Source of the DNA: Furfurilactobacillus milii | GTDB lineage: Bacteria; Bacillota; Bacilli; Lactobacillales; Lactobacillaceae | Assembly (NCBI RefSeq): GCF_021654115.1 | Contig: NZ_JAIWJF010000006.1 | Location: 1-64,000, forward strand | Length of the DNA: 64,000 nucleotides | Reading direction: 5' to 3' | Part shown: one piece after another, positions 16,441-42,832 of the stretch | Layout of the letters: each line of letters opens with the position of its first letter | Numbering within the stretch: position 1 is the first letter of the stretch | Position numbers and translations under genes: made by a program | Notes under the pieces: generated by a model | Databases searched by the model: none | Seen by the model: the letters and a program-made list of their open reading frames with translations, nothing else | What the model was told of the DNA's origin: nothing

Positions 16441-18180
16441 ATGGCAAATGATACGAATGCACCATCAACAATGCATCCCTGGTCATTTTATCCAGGCGAA
16501 CGGGATGTAAAGATGCTAAATGGTCCACGTTTTGACCAAGACGCCAATCGAACGTTTAAGATAGATGCCAATAAGTTTGCACAAGTAAAAGATGATCCAG
16601 ACGCTTTAGGGGATGTCGTGAGTCGATTTATTAATCGGCATTACACACATCAACTAAAGCGTATTTTGGCTATGCAACGTTATTACATTGGTGCTAACGA
16701 CATTAAATTTTGGAATTCTGGTAAGGCCGTTAACCGAGCTGATAATCGGATTGCTAACGAGATGCCAAAATATATTACGAATATGCGGGTTGGGTATACC
16801 TTTGGTAATCCAATCCGTTTTCAGTACAACGACGATTCCAATCAGAATGATGCTGACAGGAATGTCGTTAATGAGGTTGTCGATGACTTTGATAAACGGA
16901 CTAATGAGGCCTATCACGAAAAGGTCATGAAGAAGAATCTATCCGTGACTGGACGTGCGTATGAGTTGAATTACGTCAATAAGGATACTAACGACCCTTA
17001 CGTCATGGCATTAGATCCTAGTGAAGCATTTGTTGTCTATGACACGGACCCTGAACAGCATTCACTGTTTGCAGTGCATTATTACTATGTAGAAGACGAT
17101 GAGACGCCATTGTGGTATGTCGATGTCTATACGGCTGACCACATCATTCACTATCAACCAACCGGTTATCCAAACTCGCAATTAACCTTTGACCCACAAC
17201 AAAAAGATAGCTTTGAGGAACATTACTTTGGAGCTGTGCCAGTGACCGAGTACGTCAATAATGACGAACGACTGGGCGACTGGGAAGGTGAGATGGACAA
17301 CTTCGACGCCTACGACAAAGCAATCTCTGAGATGGCGAACAGCGAAGAAGATTTTAGCAACGCAACGTTAGTTATTTCAGGGGAATTCGACTTTGGCACT
17401 GATGAAAATGGAAAGCCAAAAGTACATCCTGATGTTGATTCATTGAGCAGATACATGTGGCTGAAACCGGCGCAGGTTCAAAATGGAACAGGTGGTAACA
17501 CTGTTGTTCCACCTAAAGCTGAGTACTTGACTAAAGAGTTACCGATTGACGCTTGGAACGCTTATGTAAAAACACTGTCTGATAACATGCACAAGTTCAC
17601 CAATTCGCCGAATGTCGCTGACGAAAACTTTGCCAGCAACGCATCTGGTGTGGCCATGTCATACAAACTGTGGGGTAGCGATCAGGAGCGGGCAACCCAA
17701 CAGGAGCTGTATGCCCGTGGCCTAATGCGACGTTTACGGCTGTTAGGTAACTATTGGTACACACTGGGAAAAATTAAGAGTGCTGACCTAATTGAGAACA
17801 TCACCCCAATCTTCACGCCGAACTTACCTAAGAATGATTCAGAAATTGTTGGCAATGTCCAAAAACTGTCACAAACTGGTGACTTTAGTCAGCAAACACT
17901 GTGGGAGATGGCACAGCCAGTTACTGGTATTGACCCTGATGAAGAACAATCACGAATGGACGCACAAGCTGATTCTGAACCGAGAGTCACAATGCCGGGT
18001 GATTATCCTGACAGCTTTGATAAGTCGTCAGATTCGGACAGCACGGCGCCAGAACAAGACAGTAACGGGGATGATACCAATCCTGAACCAACGGGTGTGC
18101 AATCTGTCGAACAGGATAAACAGACAGCCATTTTGCAAGCTATCGCCAATCAACGAAAGCAGCAGGGTGGTGGTAATTAA
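16441..18180 (+). CDS. Portal protein (SPP1 gp6-like)
   Basis: A 579-residue protein of the SPP1-type portal family: LKRILAMQRYYIGANDIKFW near the N-terminus, RIANEMPKYITNMRVGYTFG, then FDAYDKAISEMANSEEDFSN, the clip/stem region. The C-terminal 90 residues are acidic and Ser/Asn-rich (SDSDSTAPEQDSNGDDTNPE). It forms the dodecameric DNA channel at one capsid vertex. Its stop overlaps the next ATG (TAATGG). Confidence 0.93.
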   Translation: MANDTNAPSTMHPWSFYPGERDVKMLNGPRFDQDANRTFKIDANKFAQVKDDPDALGDVVSRFINRHYTHQLKRILAMQRYYIGANDIKFWNSGKAVNRADNRIANEMPKYITNMRVGYTFGNPIRFQYNDDSNQNDADRNVVNEVVDDFDKRTNEAYHEKVMKKNLSVTGRAYELNYVNKDTNDPYVMALDPSEAFVVYDTDPEQHSLFAVHYYYVEDDETPLWYVDVYTADHIIHYQPTGYPNSQLTFDPQQKDSFEEHYFGAVPVTEYVNNDERLGDWEGEMDNFDAYDKAISEMANSEEDFSNATLVISGEFDFGTDENGKPKVHPDVDSLSRYMWLKPAQVQNGTGGNTVVPPKAEYLTKELPIDAWNAYVKTLSDNMHKFTNSPNVADENFASNASGVAMSYKLWGSDQERATQQELYARGLMRRLRLLGNYWYTLGKIKSADLIENITPIFTPNLPKNDSEIVGNVQKLSQTGDFSQQTLWEMAQPVTGIDPDEEQSRMDAQADSEPRVTMPGDYPDSFDKSSDSDSTAPEQDSNGDDTNPEPTGVQSVEQDKQTAILQAIANQRKQQGGGN

Positions 18181-19091
18181 TGGAACGCAAGGACGTTTTG
18201 AAACTTGCCAAGCAAGTCTATGGCGAAAACGACAAACGTGTCACGGAACTTGCTGATTTATTCAGCACTGCCAGTAACGACATAACGAATGCGTTGAGCG
18301 AGTTTATTGCTGATGAGGTTAATTGGTCATCACCTGCGCCAAAGTCTCAGATACAAGAGCTGATGGACGATATTGCTAAGGTAGCTGTGAATGCGGCCAT
18401 GGATGAACGACCCTTTGTAAATCAAACATTCCGTGATGAACGTATGAAGACATACGGGGATGTTGCCAAACAGAAAGTTAACTTGATCTTGGTTCAGTTG
18501 GCACTTGGCGAAAAGCAAATTGTTCAAGATAACTTAGACCATGTTGACCGAGCACCAGAAGTTAACCCACAACCAAATAAGCCCGTTTACTCACGGGCTA
18601 AAACTGAACATGCCGTGCGTAAGATCGTGGGTGACCATCACCCAGGGTGGCAGGGCACTTCATGGCAAGATCGTATCTATAAAGAAAAGGCAGCCCTAAT
18701 GCGACAGTTAGACGATCAAGTTGATGACGTCCTAAAGAACCATTACAAGCCACAGGACTTTCGTAAAGAAATTGCGACTAAACTTGATTCATCCGAGAAG
18801 CGGTCTGAACGCATTCTACGAACCGAATCTAGTGGTGAATTCTCGCGGCGACTGGTTGATGATTTCACACAACACAACGTTAAGCGATACAAGATTGAAG
18901 CCGCCTTATCAGCCAATACTTGTGAAGAGTGTGAAGGATTAGATGGCAAAGAGTTCAGCATGGATGAAGCGACAGAAGGTGTGACACTACCACCGTTTCA
19001 CCCGAATTGTCAGTGCACGATTATTGAAGTGACTGATGACGATTACAGTGTCGATTTTAGTAAGATGCCAAAATATTATGGATTGAATTAA
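18180..19091 (+). CDS. Minor head protein, SPP1 gp7 family
   Basis: A 303-residue protein. The C-terminal 110 residues hold the phage head morphogenesis domain: RILRTESSGEFSRRLVDDFT, KIEAALSANTCEECEGLDGK, and PPFHPNCQCTIIEV with its HPNCxC motif. In SPP1 gp7 binds the portal and helps DNA retention or ejection. The N-terminal half is helical and family-variable. A terminator follows directly. Confidence 0.9.
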   Translation: MERKDVLKLAKQVYGENDKRVTELADLFSTASNDITNALSEFIADEVNWSSPAPKSQIQELMDDIAKVAVNAAMDERPFVNQTFRDERMKTYGDVAKQKVNLILVQLALGEKQIVQDNLDHVDRAPEVNPQPNKPVYSRAKTEHAVRKIVGDHHPGWQGTSWQDRIYKEKAALMRQLDDQVDDVLKNHYKPQDFRKEIATKLDSSEKRSERILRTESSGEFSRRLVDDFTQHNVKRYKIEAALSANTCEECEGLDGKEFSMDEATEGVTLPPFHPNCQCTIIEVTDDDYSVDFSKMPKYYGLN

Positions 19092-19118: not shown

Positions 19119-19199
19119 ATTATGCCCTTTCTTCGGCGGCGGGCGTAAAAGAACAGCTGATAGTTATACCACTTAGAAAGTATTCGGGAGGAATTTATT

Positions 19200-19856
19200 A
19201 TGTTTACACGATTATTACCAATGAATTTACAGTACTTTGCTGAACCAGAACCGGCTGGTAACGGTGAGGGCAGCAACGCCAATGCGTCGAACACTCAATC
19301 AAACAATAATGACGGTGAGCATGAAGATGGCAATGGTGGGGATGACTCCGACGGTGCGGACAAGACCTTTAGCCGTAAAGATGTTCGTGGCTTGATTTCT
19401 AGTGCAATGGATGACTTCAAAAACAAGTCATTGCCAGGGTTACTGGAGCAAGCTCGTAAAGACGGTGAGAGCCGTGCCAAGATGACCGAAGAGCAACGTG
19501 AATCAGCCGACCAAAAGGCACACCAAGCCGAACTGGATAAGCGTGAAGCTGAATTGAATCGCCGTGAATCAGTCAGTGCAACACGTGACTTATTGGCTAA
19601 GAACAGTTTGCCAGAAGACTTTGCAGATATCTTGACTGATAACGACGCTGACAAACGTTCACAACGTGTGGAAAACTTTGGTAAAGCATTTAATAAAGCG
19701 GTTCAAGCTGGCGTTGAAGAACGTTTAAAGGGCAATCGTAATCCTGGTCAATCCGTAAATAATGGTAGTAGTCATGATGACACTGAATTCGCCCAAAAAT
19801 TAGCGAAAGCAACCCATCCGAAGAAGACAGCAAATGACTTCTTTGGTAACAAATAA
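19200..19856 (+). CDS. Capsid scaffold protein (DUF4355), with Prp-site-like N-terminus
   Basis: A 218-residue, highly charged protein. The N-terminus MFTRLLPMNLQYFAEPEP is followed by an Asn/Gly/Asp linker, a long coiled-coil region (about 95-140: EEQRESADQKAHQAELDKRE), and a C-terminal capsid-binding segment (TEFAQKLAKATHPKKTANDF). It guides capsid assembly and leaves before maturation. NLQYFAE closely resembles NLQFFAH of the L27 encoded at 42536, where Prp cuts. The RBS GGGAGGAA precedes the ATG used. Confidence 0.88.
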   Translation: MFTRLLPMNLQYFAEPEPAGNGEGSNANASNTQSNNNDGEHEDGNGGDDSDGADKTFSRKDVRGLISSAMDDFKNKSLPGLLEQARKDGESRAKMTEEQRESADQKAHQAELDKREAELNRRESVSATRDLLAKNSLPEDFADILTDNDADKRSQRVENFGKAFNKAVQAGVEERLKGNRNPGQSVNNGSSHDDTEFAQKLAKATHPKKTANDFFGNK

Positions 19857-19869
19857 GGAGGTTTAACTC

Positions 19870-20241
19870 ATGACAGTTAAACATGATTTCATCTCAGAAA
19901 ATCAAGTTCTGGGAAACGTACAACACAAAGTAGCCTTGCCTGCTTTGATTGGTTCAACTGGTGTAACGGCTGACAACTTTGGTCGCAAGGTGATTCCCGC
20001 TGGCACAGTGGTTGGTGGCTCAACATCATTCTTAGATGACTCACAAGCTGTGTTATCAGCTGGTCAAGATGCTAACGCACAGGGTGTCTTAGAACATGAT
20101 GTTGATGTCACTGCTGGTAATGCGACTGGCACTGTCATCATCTTTGGCTTTGTGAATACAGCCCGTATTCCAAATGTCACTGTGTCAGATGCCGCTAAAA
20201 AGTCACTTGCTGGTAAAGTTACGTTCTTTAACCGGCAATAG
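19870..20241 (+). CDS. Head decoration-like protein
   Basis: A 123-residue, beta-rich protein between scaffold and major capsid genes (GRKVIPAGTVVGGSTSFLDD, VIIFGFVNTARIP). Such a position and size fit capsid decoration or stabilisation proteins of LAB phages. GGAGG lies ten bases from the ATG. It could instead be an N-terminal capsid accessory; no lysogenic role is suggested. Confidence 0.7.
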   Translation: MTVKHDFISENQVLGNVQHKVALPALIGSTGVTADNFGRKVIPAGTVVGGSTSFLDDSQAVLSAGQDANAQGVLEHDVDVTAGNATGTVIIFGFVNTARIPNVTVSDAAKKSLAGKVTFFNRQ

Positions 20242-20255
20242 GAGGATAAAAAACG

Positions 20256-21359
20256 ATGAATATTTTTGATTTAGTCAACGCTACAAACATTGCGGCATAC
20301 TGGGAAATGATTGCCCAAGAACAACAACCCTTTTTAGGTGAAACTTTATTCCCTAATGTTCGTCAAGTGGGGATGGAAATGGATTGGTTGAAGGGTGCTT
20401 CTGGTGCACCAGTTGCTTTAGCACCATCAGCCTTTGATTCAAACGTTGTACCACGTGGTCGTAAAGGATTGACCAAGCTAACCCAAGACTTGGCATTCTT
20501 CAAAGAATCTAAGTACGTGGATGAAAAGTTACGTCAACAATTACTGATGTTGGGTAACAGTGCTGATCAAACCTTGCGTGATACGATTATCGCCCACATC
20601 TTCGACGACGATGTTGAATTGATCCAAGGTGCTGCATTACGTCGTGAAATGATTCGTATGGAAGCACTGACTACTGGTTTTGCACACGTTTCTGGTAATG
20701 GTGTGGACATGACGATTGATTATGACATGCCAAAGGAAAACATCGGTGCTTCAAAAGTTGCTTGGGGTGATGCAAAGGGTAATCCGTTTGATGATTTCAC
20801 TCGTATTACTGACCAGATTGCTAACAAGACCGGCGCTACGATTACACGTGTCTTGATGAACCGTGCAACATGGAACACTTTGGCAAGTAATGACGCAATC
20901 AAGTCTACCTTGTTAGCCAATGCTGCAAGTAAGACAAACGTTGTGTTACCTAAGTCCGCTATTATGAGCTACATCTCAGATGAATATGGTTTGGACTTTG
21001 CTATCTACGACAAGGGTTACGTTGGTACTGATGGTAAGTTCACGAAGTTTATCCCAGACGGTAAGGCAATCTTCATGCCAGCTGTTGACCTCGGTGAAAC
21101 CCATTTTGGGACAACACCAGAAGAAGCTGACTTATTGGCTTCATCCGCTGCCCAAGTTCGTATTGTGGACACCGGTGTTGCGGTTACGACCATGACAAAA
21201 ACTGATCCAGTTAATGTTGAGACTAAAGTTTCTATGATGTCATTACCATCATTTGAACAGGCTGATTCTGTCTTTATCTTGGACACGACTGCCGGTGCAA
21301 CACCAGCAGCTAGCACAACTAGTTCAACAAGTACCACAACTTCAGGTTCAAGCAAGTAA
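20256..21359 (+). CDS. Major capsid protein (phage capsid E family)
   Basis: A 367-residue protein with the capsid E pattern: AYWEMIAQEQQPFLGETLFP, GRKGLTKLTQDLAFFKESKY, and GTDGKFTKFIPDGKAIFMPA. It forms the icosahedral shell on the scaffold. The last 20 residues are an almost pure Ser/Thr tail (STTSSTSTTTSGSSK), absent from typical members, and a similar tail ends the major tail protein. These are probably exposed and may be modified. The RBS is AGGAGG. Confidence 0.93.
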   Translation: MNIFDLVNATNIAAYWEMIAQEQQPFLGETLFPNVRQVGMEMDWLKGASGAPVALAPSAFDSNVVPRGRKGLTKLTQDLAFFKESKYVDEKLRQQLLMLGNSADQTLRDTIIAHIFDDDVELIQGAALRREMIRMEALTTGFAHVSGNGVDMTIDYDMPKENIGASKVAWGDAKGNPFDDFTRITDQIANKTGATITRVLMNRATWNTLASNDAIKSTLLANAASKTNVVLPKSAIMSYISDEYGLDFAIYDKGYVGTDGKFTKFIPDGKAIFMPAVDLGETHFGTTPEEADLLASSAAQVRIVDTGVAVTTMTKTDPVNVETKVSMMSLPSFEQADSVFILDTTAGATPAASTTSSTSTTTSGSSK

Positions 21360-41734: not shown

Positions 41735-41816
41735 CGCAAAATAAGTTTTAAGTTTTCTCTGTTTAGGCAGTGAAACGCTTATCTTTGGCGAGTCTAAGAA
41801 ACTTTTAAGGAGGTGC
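41735..41816 (+). ncRNA. Probable L21 leader RNA (ribosomal protein autoregulation)
   Basis: The 80 bases before rplU are non-coding and lie where Firmicutes carry the L21 leader, an mRNA structure bound by L21 to regulate rplU-prp-rpmA. Pairing segments such as GTTTTAAGTTTTCTC and the GGCAGTGAAACGC region are visible, but the consensus fold could not be checked by eye. The call rests mainly on position. Confidence 0.45.
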
Positions 41817-41821
41817 ACAAC

Positions 41822-42163
41822 GTGTACGCAATTATTAAAACTGGTGGTAAGCAATACAAGGTTGAAAAGGGTTCACCTATCTTTGTTGAAAAGCTTGATG
41901 CAAAGGAAGGCGACAAAGTTACCTTTGACGAAGTTGTGTTAGTTGCTAGCCGTTCCATTAAGATCGGAACACCATATGTTGATGGTGCTTCAGTTACTGG
42001 AACTGTTGAAAAGCAAGGCAAGGAAAAGAAAGTTGTTACTTTCAAGTACAAGCCTAAGAAGAACCAACACACTAAGACAGGTCACCGTCAACCCTATACG
42101 CGTGTCATGATTGATGAAATTGCTGGCGCAACTTCATCAAAGAGCGCTGACGCAGACAAGTAA
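41822..42163 (+). CDS. rplU: Ribosomal protein L21
   Basis: A 113-residue L21: [14 protein letters not shown] at the start, then [20 protein letters not shown] and [20 protein letters not shown], the rRNA-binding signature. The GTG at 41822 is the true start, because the GTG at 41813 lies within the AAGGAGGTG ribosome binding site. The C-terminus has a short Ser/Ala/Asp extension. First gene of the rplU-prp-rpmA operon of the large ribosomal subunit. Confidence 0.97.
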
Positions 42164-42190
42164 ACAACTACGAAACCACGCTAAGCTATT

Positions 42191-42520
42191 ATGATTAAAG
42201 TTGATATTTCGAGAAATGCTAAGCGCCAACCGGTTCGGTTTGTTATGACTGGCCATGCAGGTGCTGGTGATTATGGTGAAGATATTGTTTGTGCGGCAGC
42301 CTCTGTGCTGGCGATTACCACTGTTAACGCATTGGATGAAATTGCTGGGGTCCACCCGACAGTTTCATCAGATGATGACAATGGTGGCTTCTTGGAAGTG
42401 GTTATCAATGATCGCAATCAAGCAGTTGAAACAATTTTAGCCACATTTATTTTAGGCATGACGCAAGTTGCACAGAAATACACTCAATTCGTTACGATTA
42501 GTGATGGTCACATTAACTAA
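42191..42520 (+). CDS. prp: Prp cysteine protease for L27 maturation
   Basis: A 109-residue protein of the YsxB/Prp family. The catalytic pair is visible: His22 in TGHAGAGDYG and Cys34 in DIVCAAAS. Prp removes the N-terminal extension of L27 in Firmicutes and is essential in S. aureus. The gene lies between rplU and rpmA, as is usual. In staphylococcal phage 80alpha, host Prp also cuts phage capsid-assembly proteins, which is relevant to the scaffold at 19200. Confidence 0.95.
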   Translation: MIKVDISRNAKRQPVRFVMTGHAGAGDYGEDIVCAAASVLAITTVNALDEIAGVHPTVSSDDDNGGFLEVVINDRNQAVETILATFILGMTQVAQKYTQFVTISDGHIN

Positions 42521-42535
42521 TGGAGGTGTAACCAC

Positions 42536-42832
42536 ATGTTATTGGATATGAACTTACAATTTTTCGCTCACCATAAGGGAGGCGGATCTACTGCCAACGG
42601 TCGTGACTCTGCTGGTCGTCGTTTAGGTACTAAACGTGCCGACGGTCAAAAGATCAACGCTGGTTCCATAATCTACCGTCAACGCGGAACTCACATTCTG
42701 CCAGGTATGAATGTTGGTCGTGGTGGTGATGACACACTGTTTGCTTTGACAGATGGTGTTGTTAAGTTTGAACGTAAAGGTAAGGATCGCCGTCAGGTGT
42801 CCGTTTACCCTGCCGCTGAAGCAGCAGAATAA
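42536..42832 (+). CDS. rpmA: Ribosomal protein L27 with Prp-cleaved N-terminal extension
   Basis: A 98-residue L27. The start [19 protein letters not shown] carries the Firmicute extension ending NLQFF; Prp cuts after the second Phe to leave AHHKGGGST at the peptidyl-transferase centre. The core ([40 protein letters not shown]) is typical. GGAGG precedes the ATG and a terminator follows. Confidence 0.97.

Follow-up and report, generated by a model that had tools for sequence, protein, structure and literature searches.

An L27-like leader on a Furfurilactobacillus prophage scaffolding protein, a likely substrate of the host protease Prp

Introduction

In the staphylococcal phage 80alpha, the scaffolding and capsid proteins are both cut by the host protease Prp, as the first-pass annotation of the DNA studied here had stated; the cut is at F↓A (the arrow marks the bond cut), and 14 and 13 residues are removed from the scaffold and the capsid protein, respectively (PMC5744158). 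The same source describes that an uncleavable 80alpha scaffold gives normal phage, whereas a pre-cleaved (leaderless) scaffold gives none (section 3.1); thus, in 80alpha the leader is needed but the cut is not. The motif also occurs on non-homologous proteins elsewhere, namely the capsid protein of phage 80 and the major tail protein of phi13 (PMC5744158).

The prp gene is usually found between rplU and rpmA (PMC9405229, section 3.1). Prps are reported to be species-specific, in that an L27 peptide of S. aureus was not cleaved by the C. difficile enzyme (PMC9405229, section 1.3). The capsid protease of phage Cp-1, which trims the N-terminus of the capsid protein, is likened to Prp by clan (clan CR) in the same source (section 3.1). 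No link of phage-borne Prp to LQxF sites was found in searches of open-access literature. Krappator X27 gp4 is called a 'putative maturation head protease' in PMC12403621, and the available parts of PMC6893505, PMC12323379 and PMC4493119 contain nothing further on phage-borne Prp and LQxF sites.

Results

The prophage and its scaffold gene

The window, i.e., the whole stretch of DNA analyzed, comprises the first 64 kb of a 184-kb contig in a genome of 2,649,270 bases. A prophage occupies roughly positions 500 to 39,800, with genes for a repressor, an antirepressor, RecT, terminase, portal, minor head, scaffold, capsid, tail and lysis proteins, and is followed by the rplU-prp-rpmA operon at 41,813-42,832. 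The head genes and the predicted site are as follows.

16441-18180, forward strand: portal protein, SPP1 type (PF05133), overlapping at 18180 with the following gene; in contrast to phages with their own Prp, there is no Prp gene after it
18180-19091, forward strand: minor head protein, Mu F-like, 303 aa (PF04233)
19200-19856, forward strand: head scaffolding protein of the DUF4355/Gp46 family, 218 aa (PF14265, E 1.8e-22; phrog_172, E 3.5e-38)
19200-19238, forward strand: leader MFTRLLPMNLQYF, 13 residues, predicted to be removed (translation; GGGAGG at 19186-19191)
19224-19241, forward strand: Prp-like site NLQYF↓A (P5-P1'), one of two copies of the motif in the genome (comparison with L27 and relatives)
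Between codons 19236-19238 and 19239-19241, forward strand: predicted scissile bond
19870-20241, forward strand: small head protein without the site (phrog_909, a major head protein by name; phrog_49, head decoration; sequence)
20256-21359, forward strand: major capsid protein, Phage_cap_E, without the site (PF03864, E 1.4e-43; sequence)

The scaffold matched PF14265 ('Capsid assembly scaffolding protein Gp46' in Pfam) with 80.3 bits against a gathering score of 25.4, and its gene sits between those for the minor head and capsid proteins, as expected of a Gp46-type scaffold. In a sequence search against solved structures, the scaffold gave one weak, near-full-length match, to the scaffold chain of 6b0x (E 0.0035, residues 6-203 to 6-196), the entry of the 80alpha/SaPI1 procapsid.

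The N-terminus of the scaffold reads MFTRLLPMNLQYFAEPEP when 19200-19856 is translated. In the first-pass annotation, the protein had been given the N-terminus MNLQYFAEPEP. The site itself was read correctly (NLQYFA is present), but the methionine is the internal M8 and the start lies seven codons upstream, where GGGAGG stands 8 nt 5' of the ATG at 19200; no Shine-Dalgarno sequence was seen before M8. With this start, the predicted leader is MFTRLLPMNLQYF and an LQxF↓A/S motif falls within about 10-30 residues of the N-terminus, the site starting at residue 9. In a sister scaffold from another Furfurilactobacillus genome and species (94% identical), residues 1-16 are unchanged and several changes occur in the adjoining linker. 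The capsid protein begins with MNIFDLVNATNIAAYWE and no Prp-like site was seen in this N-terminus, which upholds the earlier remark that the capsid protein lacks the motif, unlike that of 80alpha.

The Mu F-like protein matches a PHROG of head maturation proteases but was rejected as a protease, being of 303 aa with PF04233 as its only Pfam match. Elsewhere in the window, a gene for a SocA/Panacea antitoxin-like protein (PF13274; 38942-39397) lies between the lysin gene and the right end of the prophage, direct repeats with a 60-base spacing occupy positions 1-360 at the contig start (stops were met in the one frame translated), and no tRNA gene was found in the 64 kb.

Host Prp and L27

The operon downstream of the prophage comprises three genes.

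41813-42163, forward strand: rplU, ribosomal protein L21 (PF00829, E 3.1e-39)
42191-42520, forward strand: host Prp, cysteine protease with H22, D31 and C34 present (PF04327, E 6.5e-25; matches the Prp chains 4peo/7kld and 7jvs)
42536-42832, forward strand: rpmA, long L27 with an NLQ-aromatic-F↓A site (PF01016, E 1.5e-34)

Of the S. aureus enzyme, the host Prp retains both catalytic residues (H22 and C34) and the essential Asp (D31; numbering of PMC9405229). It is 100% identical to the Prp of a Furfurilactobacillus milii strain and 98% identical to that of F. rossiae, which places the host in Furfurilactobacillus. It is also the one PF04327 match in the whole 2.65-Mb genome, and a Prp encoded by the prophage was therefore rejected. 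Thus, the host has both Prp and a long L27 with a site like that of the scaffold, as the first-pass annotation stated; the two sites differ at P2 (Y in the scaffold, F in L27), and after the cut the scaffold has acidic residues (AE) in place of the A(S/H)KK of long L27s of Firmicutes. The annotation further pointed to protease, host substrate and likely phage substrate lying in one window. The co-location is real, but we assign no functional weight to the closeness of prp and rpmA, because prp between rplU and rpmA is the usual order. The nearness of the prophage to this operon was likewise rejected as meaningful, as the contig starts at base 1 of the window and the left end of the prophage is out of sight.

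Rarity and N-terminal placement of the site

A degenerate 17-mer for NLQ(F/Y)FA matched the genome (2,649,270 bases) exactly twice, namely in the scaffold and L27 genes, and its reversed control had no match. A scan of the N-terminal 45 residues of all forward-strand window ORFs that reach 80 aa yielded LQxFA in these two alone, and a second site on another such protein was rejected accordingly. In the sampled phage loci described below, a looser site pattern was found in 331 of 3170 N-terminal 45-aa stretches vs. 20 of 13,472 internal ones, the 3170 ORFs being called mechanically (at least 100 aa, forward strand, near-duplicates included). This pattern passed over PYKLQFFAE in locus L540, which the pattern used for the P2 tally let in. 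Given the 17-mer count with its reversed control and the N-terminal excess, we reject a mere chance resemblance of the scaffold site to that of L27, to which we give next to no probability.

A search for NLQ(F/Y)FA(D/E) in the 398 genomes sampled from the class, regardless of protein family, recovered 27 sites in 26 genomes vs. 7 matches of the reversed control. Fourteen of the 27 were at a plausible N-terminus, while the other 13 were internal, in tiny ORFs or without a good start. The 14 comprised seven scaffolds (five DUF4355 matches and two recognized by eye), three FlhB proteins (by eye; one a short ORF), one capsid protein (phrog_29), two tail-like proteins of a single genome and one ORF of 83 aa that immediately follows a scaffold. 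The three FlhB-like proteins (L034, L035 and L037) start with NLQ(F/Y)FAE-type sites, matching the published proposal of FlhB as a further Prp substrate (PMC9405229). The two tail-like proteins (L039, phrog_365, and L059, both of genome G215) start with ...IPMNLQYFAD or ...IPLNLQYFAD and are possible Prp clients.

DUF4355 scaffolds and the L27 of their hosts

We read 178 DUF4355 proteins from 158 genomes, a survey suggested by the first-pass annotation, together with the L27 N-terminus of each host. The genomes came from partly overlapping samples of the class (398 genomes, 43 with matches), the order (395, 110) and the phylum (378, 19). Four of the 178 rows had no readable N-terminus and were left out, leaving 174; two overlapping interrupted fragments of genome G113 were also left out. 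An N-terminal site was present in 69 of the 138 DUF4355 proteins from hosts with a canonical long L27 and in none of the 33 from hosts with a divergent (0/29) or short (0/4) L27, in which the divergent class was set after the L27s had been seen, the short class rests on the choice of start codon and the L27 of genome G007 was entered by hand. Three unclassed rows, of which the L27 start was read as GTG and the L27 looks canonical, had no scaffold site (69/141 if included). By genus, the site was found in 33 of 67 canonical vs. none of eight divergent or short cases (Fisher p 0.008). Nineteen of the 29 divergent rows belong to one genus (g4), the L27 leaders of which match the streptococcal ones in Table 2 of PMC9405229; NLQLF↓A is still the ending of most of these leaders. 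As examples of site-bearing pairs, host G418 has L27 MLLKLNIQYFAHKK and scaffold MEQDNLLKLNIQYFAEE, and host G155 has L27 MMKLLLTLDLQFFA and one scaffold with ...PKLLLTLNIQYFAD. The scaffolds L148 and L149 of G767 and G850 carry KLNLQLH followed by A or G, with His at P1, and fall outside the site pattern; the L27 of these hosts has ELQLF↓A.

Prp genes were counted in 80 of the 158 genomes, namely 60 with a site-bearing scaffold and 20 site-less ones hand-picked from canonical-L27 hosts. Among the 60, 50 (including that of the window) had a single Prp, nine had two and one was ambiguous, and the second Prp in the nine genomes lay 1.8-4.5 kb upstream of the scaffold match. No second Prp was found in any of the 20 site-less genomes.

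Phages carrying their own Prp

A tblastn search of named phages with the host Prp as query returned 21 records, several of which were annotated as 'peptidase' beside 'portal protein'; a lactococcal phage Prp as query returned 25. We read seven of these phages, namely Oenococcus Krappator27 and phiS13, Lactococcus PLgT-1 and TP712, Latilactobacillus TMW 1.1365 P3, Brochothrix BL3 and Enterococcus phiFL3A. As TP712 lacks gene annotation, its genes were assigned from their resemblance to those of PLgT-1. All seven encode Prp between portal and minor head, two of them with one small ORF separating Prp from the portal gene, and the scaffold and the major capsid protein both start with a site in all seven. 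For instance, phiS13 has ...SLLNLQRF↓AEGG on the scaffold and MLKTVNLQRF↓ADIA on the capsid protein, and BL3 has MLKNLKMNLQLF↓AE on the scaffold, MIKKLRMNLQKF↓AA on the capsid protein and MNKIKMDLQKF↓AG on a tail protein; the site on the tail protein of phiFL3A is LQLL↓A. All four Prps scanned from these phages passed the PF04327 cut-off, and the other three were identified by tblastn. The three capsid proteins scanned belong to three Pfam families, and thus the Prp-like site recurs on non-homologous proteins.

Viral contigs were sampled in three ways, i.e., by a Prp peptide pattern (80 of 126 Prp relatives taken in), by related capsids (the best 80 of 138) and by related scaffolds (the best 80 of 359), and the three samples share some contigs. 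They contained 143 loci with their own Prp, 133 of which had at least 4 kb downstream. Within 6 kb downstream of Prp, 130 of these 133 loci carried between one and three site-bearing ORFs (minimum 100 aa), and so did 32 of the 33 Prp clusters; where identified, they were scaffold, capsid and tail proteins, with LQxF↓A sites. No site-bearing ORF was found in the cluster of L395 and L397, where no more than two ORFs of 100 aa or longer follow Prp within 4.5 kb, nor at locus L434, though other members of the cluster of L434 have sites. No head genes were recognized by eye in L395 and L397. In loci L372-L376, L638 and L639, Prp stands between portal and minor head, and sites are on the scaffold, the capsid protein and, in some, the major tail protein.

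In the capsid-anchored sample (74 loci with enough upstream DNA), all 62 loci with an own Prp also had a scaffold site (11 of 11 clusters), whereas all 12 Prp-less loci were without the site; as the latter form two clusters, the contrast is strong by locus and thin by lineage. The capsid protein itself bore a site in 21 of the 62 own-Prp loci (6 of 11 clusters). In the scaffold-anchored sample, one of the 60 loci with more than 4 kb upstream had both Prp and site, and 29 of the other 59 had the site (30 including L540). Phage loci that lack a phage Prp and span at least 12 kb numbered 63; a single site-bearing ORF was present in 23 of them, two in one and none in 39. Single-site loci are thus common in Prp-less phages, for which a site-free capsid protein like that of the window phage is ordinary, and we do not regard a capsid site as a defining criterion.

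In a tree of 35 phage and 83 host Prp representatives, the phage/host label changed twice vs. 30.6 times in shuffles, albeit on a short alignment with few columns, many weak forks and an arbitrary root. The sampled phage Prps therefore do not look like recent captures from hosts.

Association of the P2 residue with the Prp present

The P2 residue goes with which Prp is present. In own-Prp loci, the 64 site clusters had R (23), L (17), M (13), K (4), F (2), Q (2), H (1), N (1) and A (1) at P2, while the 24 clusters from loci without Prp had L (11), F (10), M (2) and Y (1). R or K was found in 27 of 64 own-Prp vs. 0 of 24 Prp-less clusters (p 4e-5), and F or Y in 2 of 64 vs. 11 of 24 (p 4e-6). 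With Y at P2, F in the L27 of its host and no Prp in the phage, the scaffold of the window falls into the class presumably read by host Prp.

Within genomes holding a single Prp, the 51 distinct scaffolds (near-identical sites within a genus counted once) point in the same direction. Y was at P2 in 11 of 31 scaffolds from hosts with an F/Y-type L27 vs. 0 of 20 from L-type hosts (p 0.0035), and L or M in 8 of 20 L-type vs. 0 of 31 F/Y-type (p 0.0002), both groupings having been picked after the data were seen. The code is loose, since F occurs at P2 in 10 of the 20 scaffolds of L-type hosts. With genus-level shuffling, the scaffold and the host L27 shared the P2 residue in 25 of 51 cases against 16.5 expected (p 0.03, a modest excess), P5 in 28 of 51 against 24.3 (p 0.06) and P4 in 50 of 51 against 47.4 (p 0.035). 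Before removal of own-Prp cases, P2 identity was 28 of 61 distinct site-bearing scaffolds against 20.7 (p 0.06), and P1' did not track the host L27 (38/61 vs. 40.2 expected). Genome G572 was left out of the own-Prp comparison, as short contigs hide which phage holds its two extra Prps. P1 is F in nearly every site.

Two further points count against a reading of the scaffold site by host Prp. The scaffold of the window has Y at P2 instead of the F of its host L27, and Prps are reported to be species-specific; moreover, L at P2 is common in own-Prp phages as well (17 of 64 clusters).

These data also bear on whether the scaffold site simply reflects common descent, that is, a site of an ancestral own-Prp phage kept in the scaffold and no longer cut in the present host. 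Phages of the same capsid family do have their own Prp and sites while the window phage has no Prp, in keeping with this idea. Set against this, the R/K at P2 that is frequent with an own Prp is absent from Prp-less clusters, and residues 1-16 of the scaffold are the same in two species of the genus despite a changed linker. We consider common descent alone quite improbable.

The N-terminal motif could alternatively be a structural or chaperone-binding element common to scaffold and L27 leaders, with cleavage by Prp incidental or absent. That the 80alpha leader is essential while the uncleavable scaffold is viable (PMC5744158) accords with this idea, as does the lack of the motif in half of the DUF4355 proteins from canonical-L27 hosts. 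Against it stand sites on unrelated proteins (scaffolds, capsid proteins of three Pfam families and major tail proteins), the near-fixation of F at P1, the site travelling with a phage-borne Prp and a P2 that differs by the Prp present. Altogether, we regard this explanation as unlikely.

Discussion

We propose that the window encodes a leadered scaffold of the 80alpha type that is cut by host Prp, in which the leader is needed and the cut is a non-essential maturation step, and that the phage belongs to a class relying on host Prp; we put the probability of this reading at roughly 0.8. The Gp46-type scaffold, the sole Prp of the genome and a motif present in two copies make cleavage at F13↓A14 by host Prp likely, and the scaffold site is likely a Prp site with host Prp as its reader. 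The idea of host Prp as the scaffold protease, already put forward in the first-pass annotation, is thus favored by comparison (a sole Prp with intact catalytic residues, a P2 of the host-Prp class and a Gp46-family scaffold), and the cleavage itself is a prediction. The further claim that capsid assembly depends on a ribosome-maturation protease is not borne out, given the viability of 80alpha with an uncleavable scaffold (PMC5744158).

In the mechanism that we envisage, the prophage would make a DUF4355 scaffold of which the 13-residue leader mimics that of the host L27, and host Prp, which normally trims L27, would cut it between F13 and A14. By analogy with 80alpha, newly made scaffold probably requires the leader, for folding or for assembly with the capsid protein, and the cut would belong to maturation without being strictly essential under laboratory conditions. 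Both the role of the leader and the occurrence of cleavage in the window phage are inferred from this analogy. Phages with such sites would then fall into two classes. One carries its own Prp beside the portal gene and sites on one to three structural proteins, often with R, L, M or K at P2, and the other, putatively including the window phage, has no Prp of its own and a scaffold site of which P2 resembles that of L27.

Since scaffold and L27 would share one enzyme, the abundant scaffold might, besides being cut, act as a decoy that saturates Prp, delays L27 maturation and thereby hits ribosome assembly. The 130-320 scaffold copies per 80alpha procapsid (PMC5744158) are in keeping with such an effect, but phages with their own Prp would have no need of it, and we deem the decoy very unlikely.

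Returning to cleavage by host Prp as a maturation step, we lean slightly towards a broader view, in which Prp is more than a ribosome enzyme borrowed by staphylococcal phages. Phages of Firmicutes would have a separate and old Prp lineage of their own, dedicated to the maturation of scaffold, capsid and tail proteins and with its own P2 preference (R/K/M besides L). The site of Prp-less phages such as that of the window would have been retuned to the L27 code of the host, and the match between scaffold site and host Prp could help to determine the productive host range. In 80alpha, cleavage by a host ribosome-maturation protease appeared dispensable and its purpose was left open. The presence of the site in half of the DUF4355 scaffolds surveyed from canonical-L27 hosts (69/138) and the own-Prp phages with sites on up to three proteins, among which are the cultured phages Lactococcus TP712 and Brochothrix BL3, suggest that cleavage is under natural selection; that phages keep a dedicated Prp together with its sites likewise suggests that the cut matters in nature. 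Prp would then have non-ribosomal clients, which bears on its use as a drug target.

Comparison with known systems

The Furfurilactobacillus prophage of the window probably uses the same system as 80alpha. Like gp46/gp47 of 80alpha, it combines a Gp46-family scaffold, a leader of 13-14 residues ending in LQxF↓A and the lack of a phage Prp, with host Prp as the predicted reader. Unlike in 80alpha, the site is on the scaffold only, the capsid protein is of the Phage_cap_E family, the host is Furfurilactobacillus, P2 is Y and cleavage is predicted. With the long L27 leader and Prp of Firmicutes (MEROPS C108), the prophage shares the NLQ-aromatic-F↓A site and would share the enzyme, but the substrate is a phage scaffold with AE after the cut instead of A(S/H)KK. 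Finally, the seven phages with their own Prp (phiS13, Krappator27, PLgT-1, TP712, TMW 1.1365 P3, BL3 and phiFL3A) have the same order of portal, minor head, scaffold and capsid genes and a scaffold site, and differ from the window phage in that they encode Prp, bear sites on both scaffold and capsid proteins (in BL3 and phiFL3A also on a tail protein) and often have R, K, L or H at P2.
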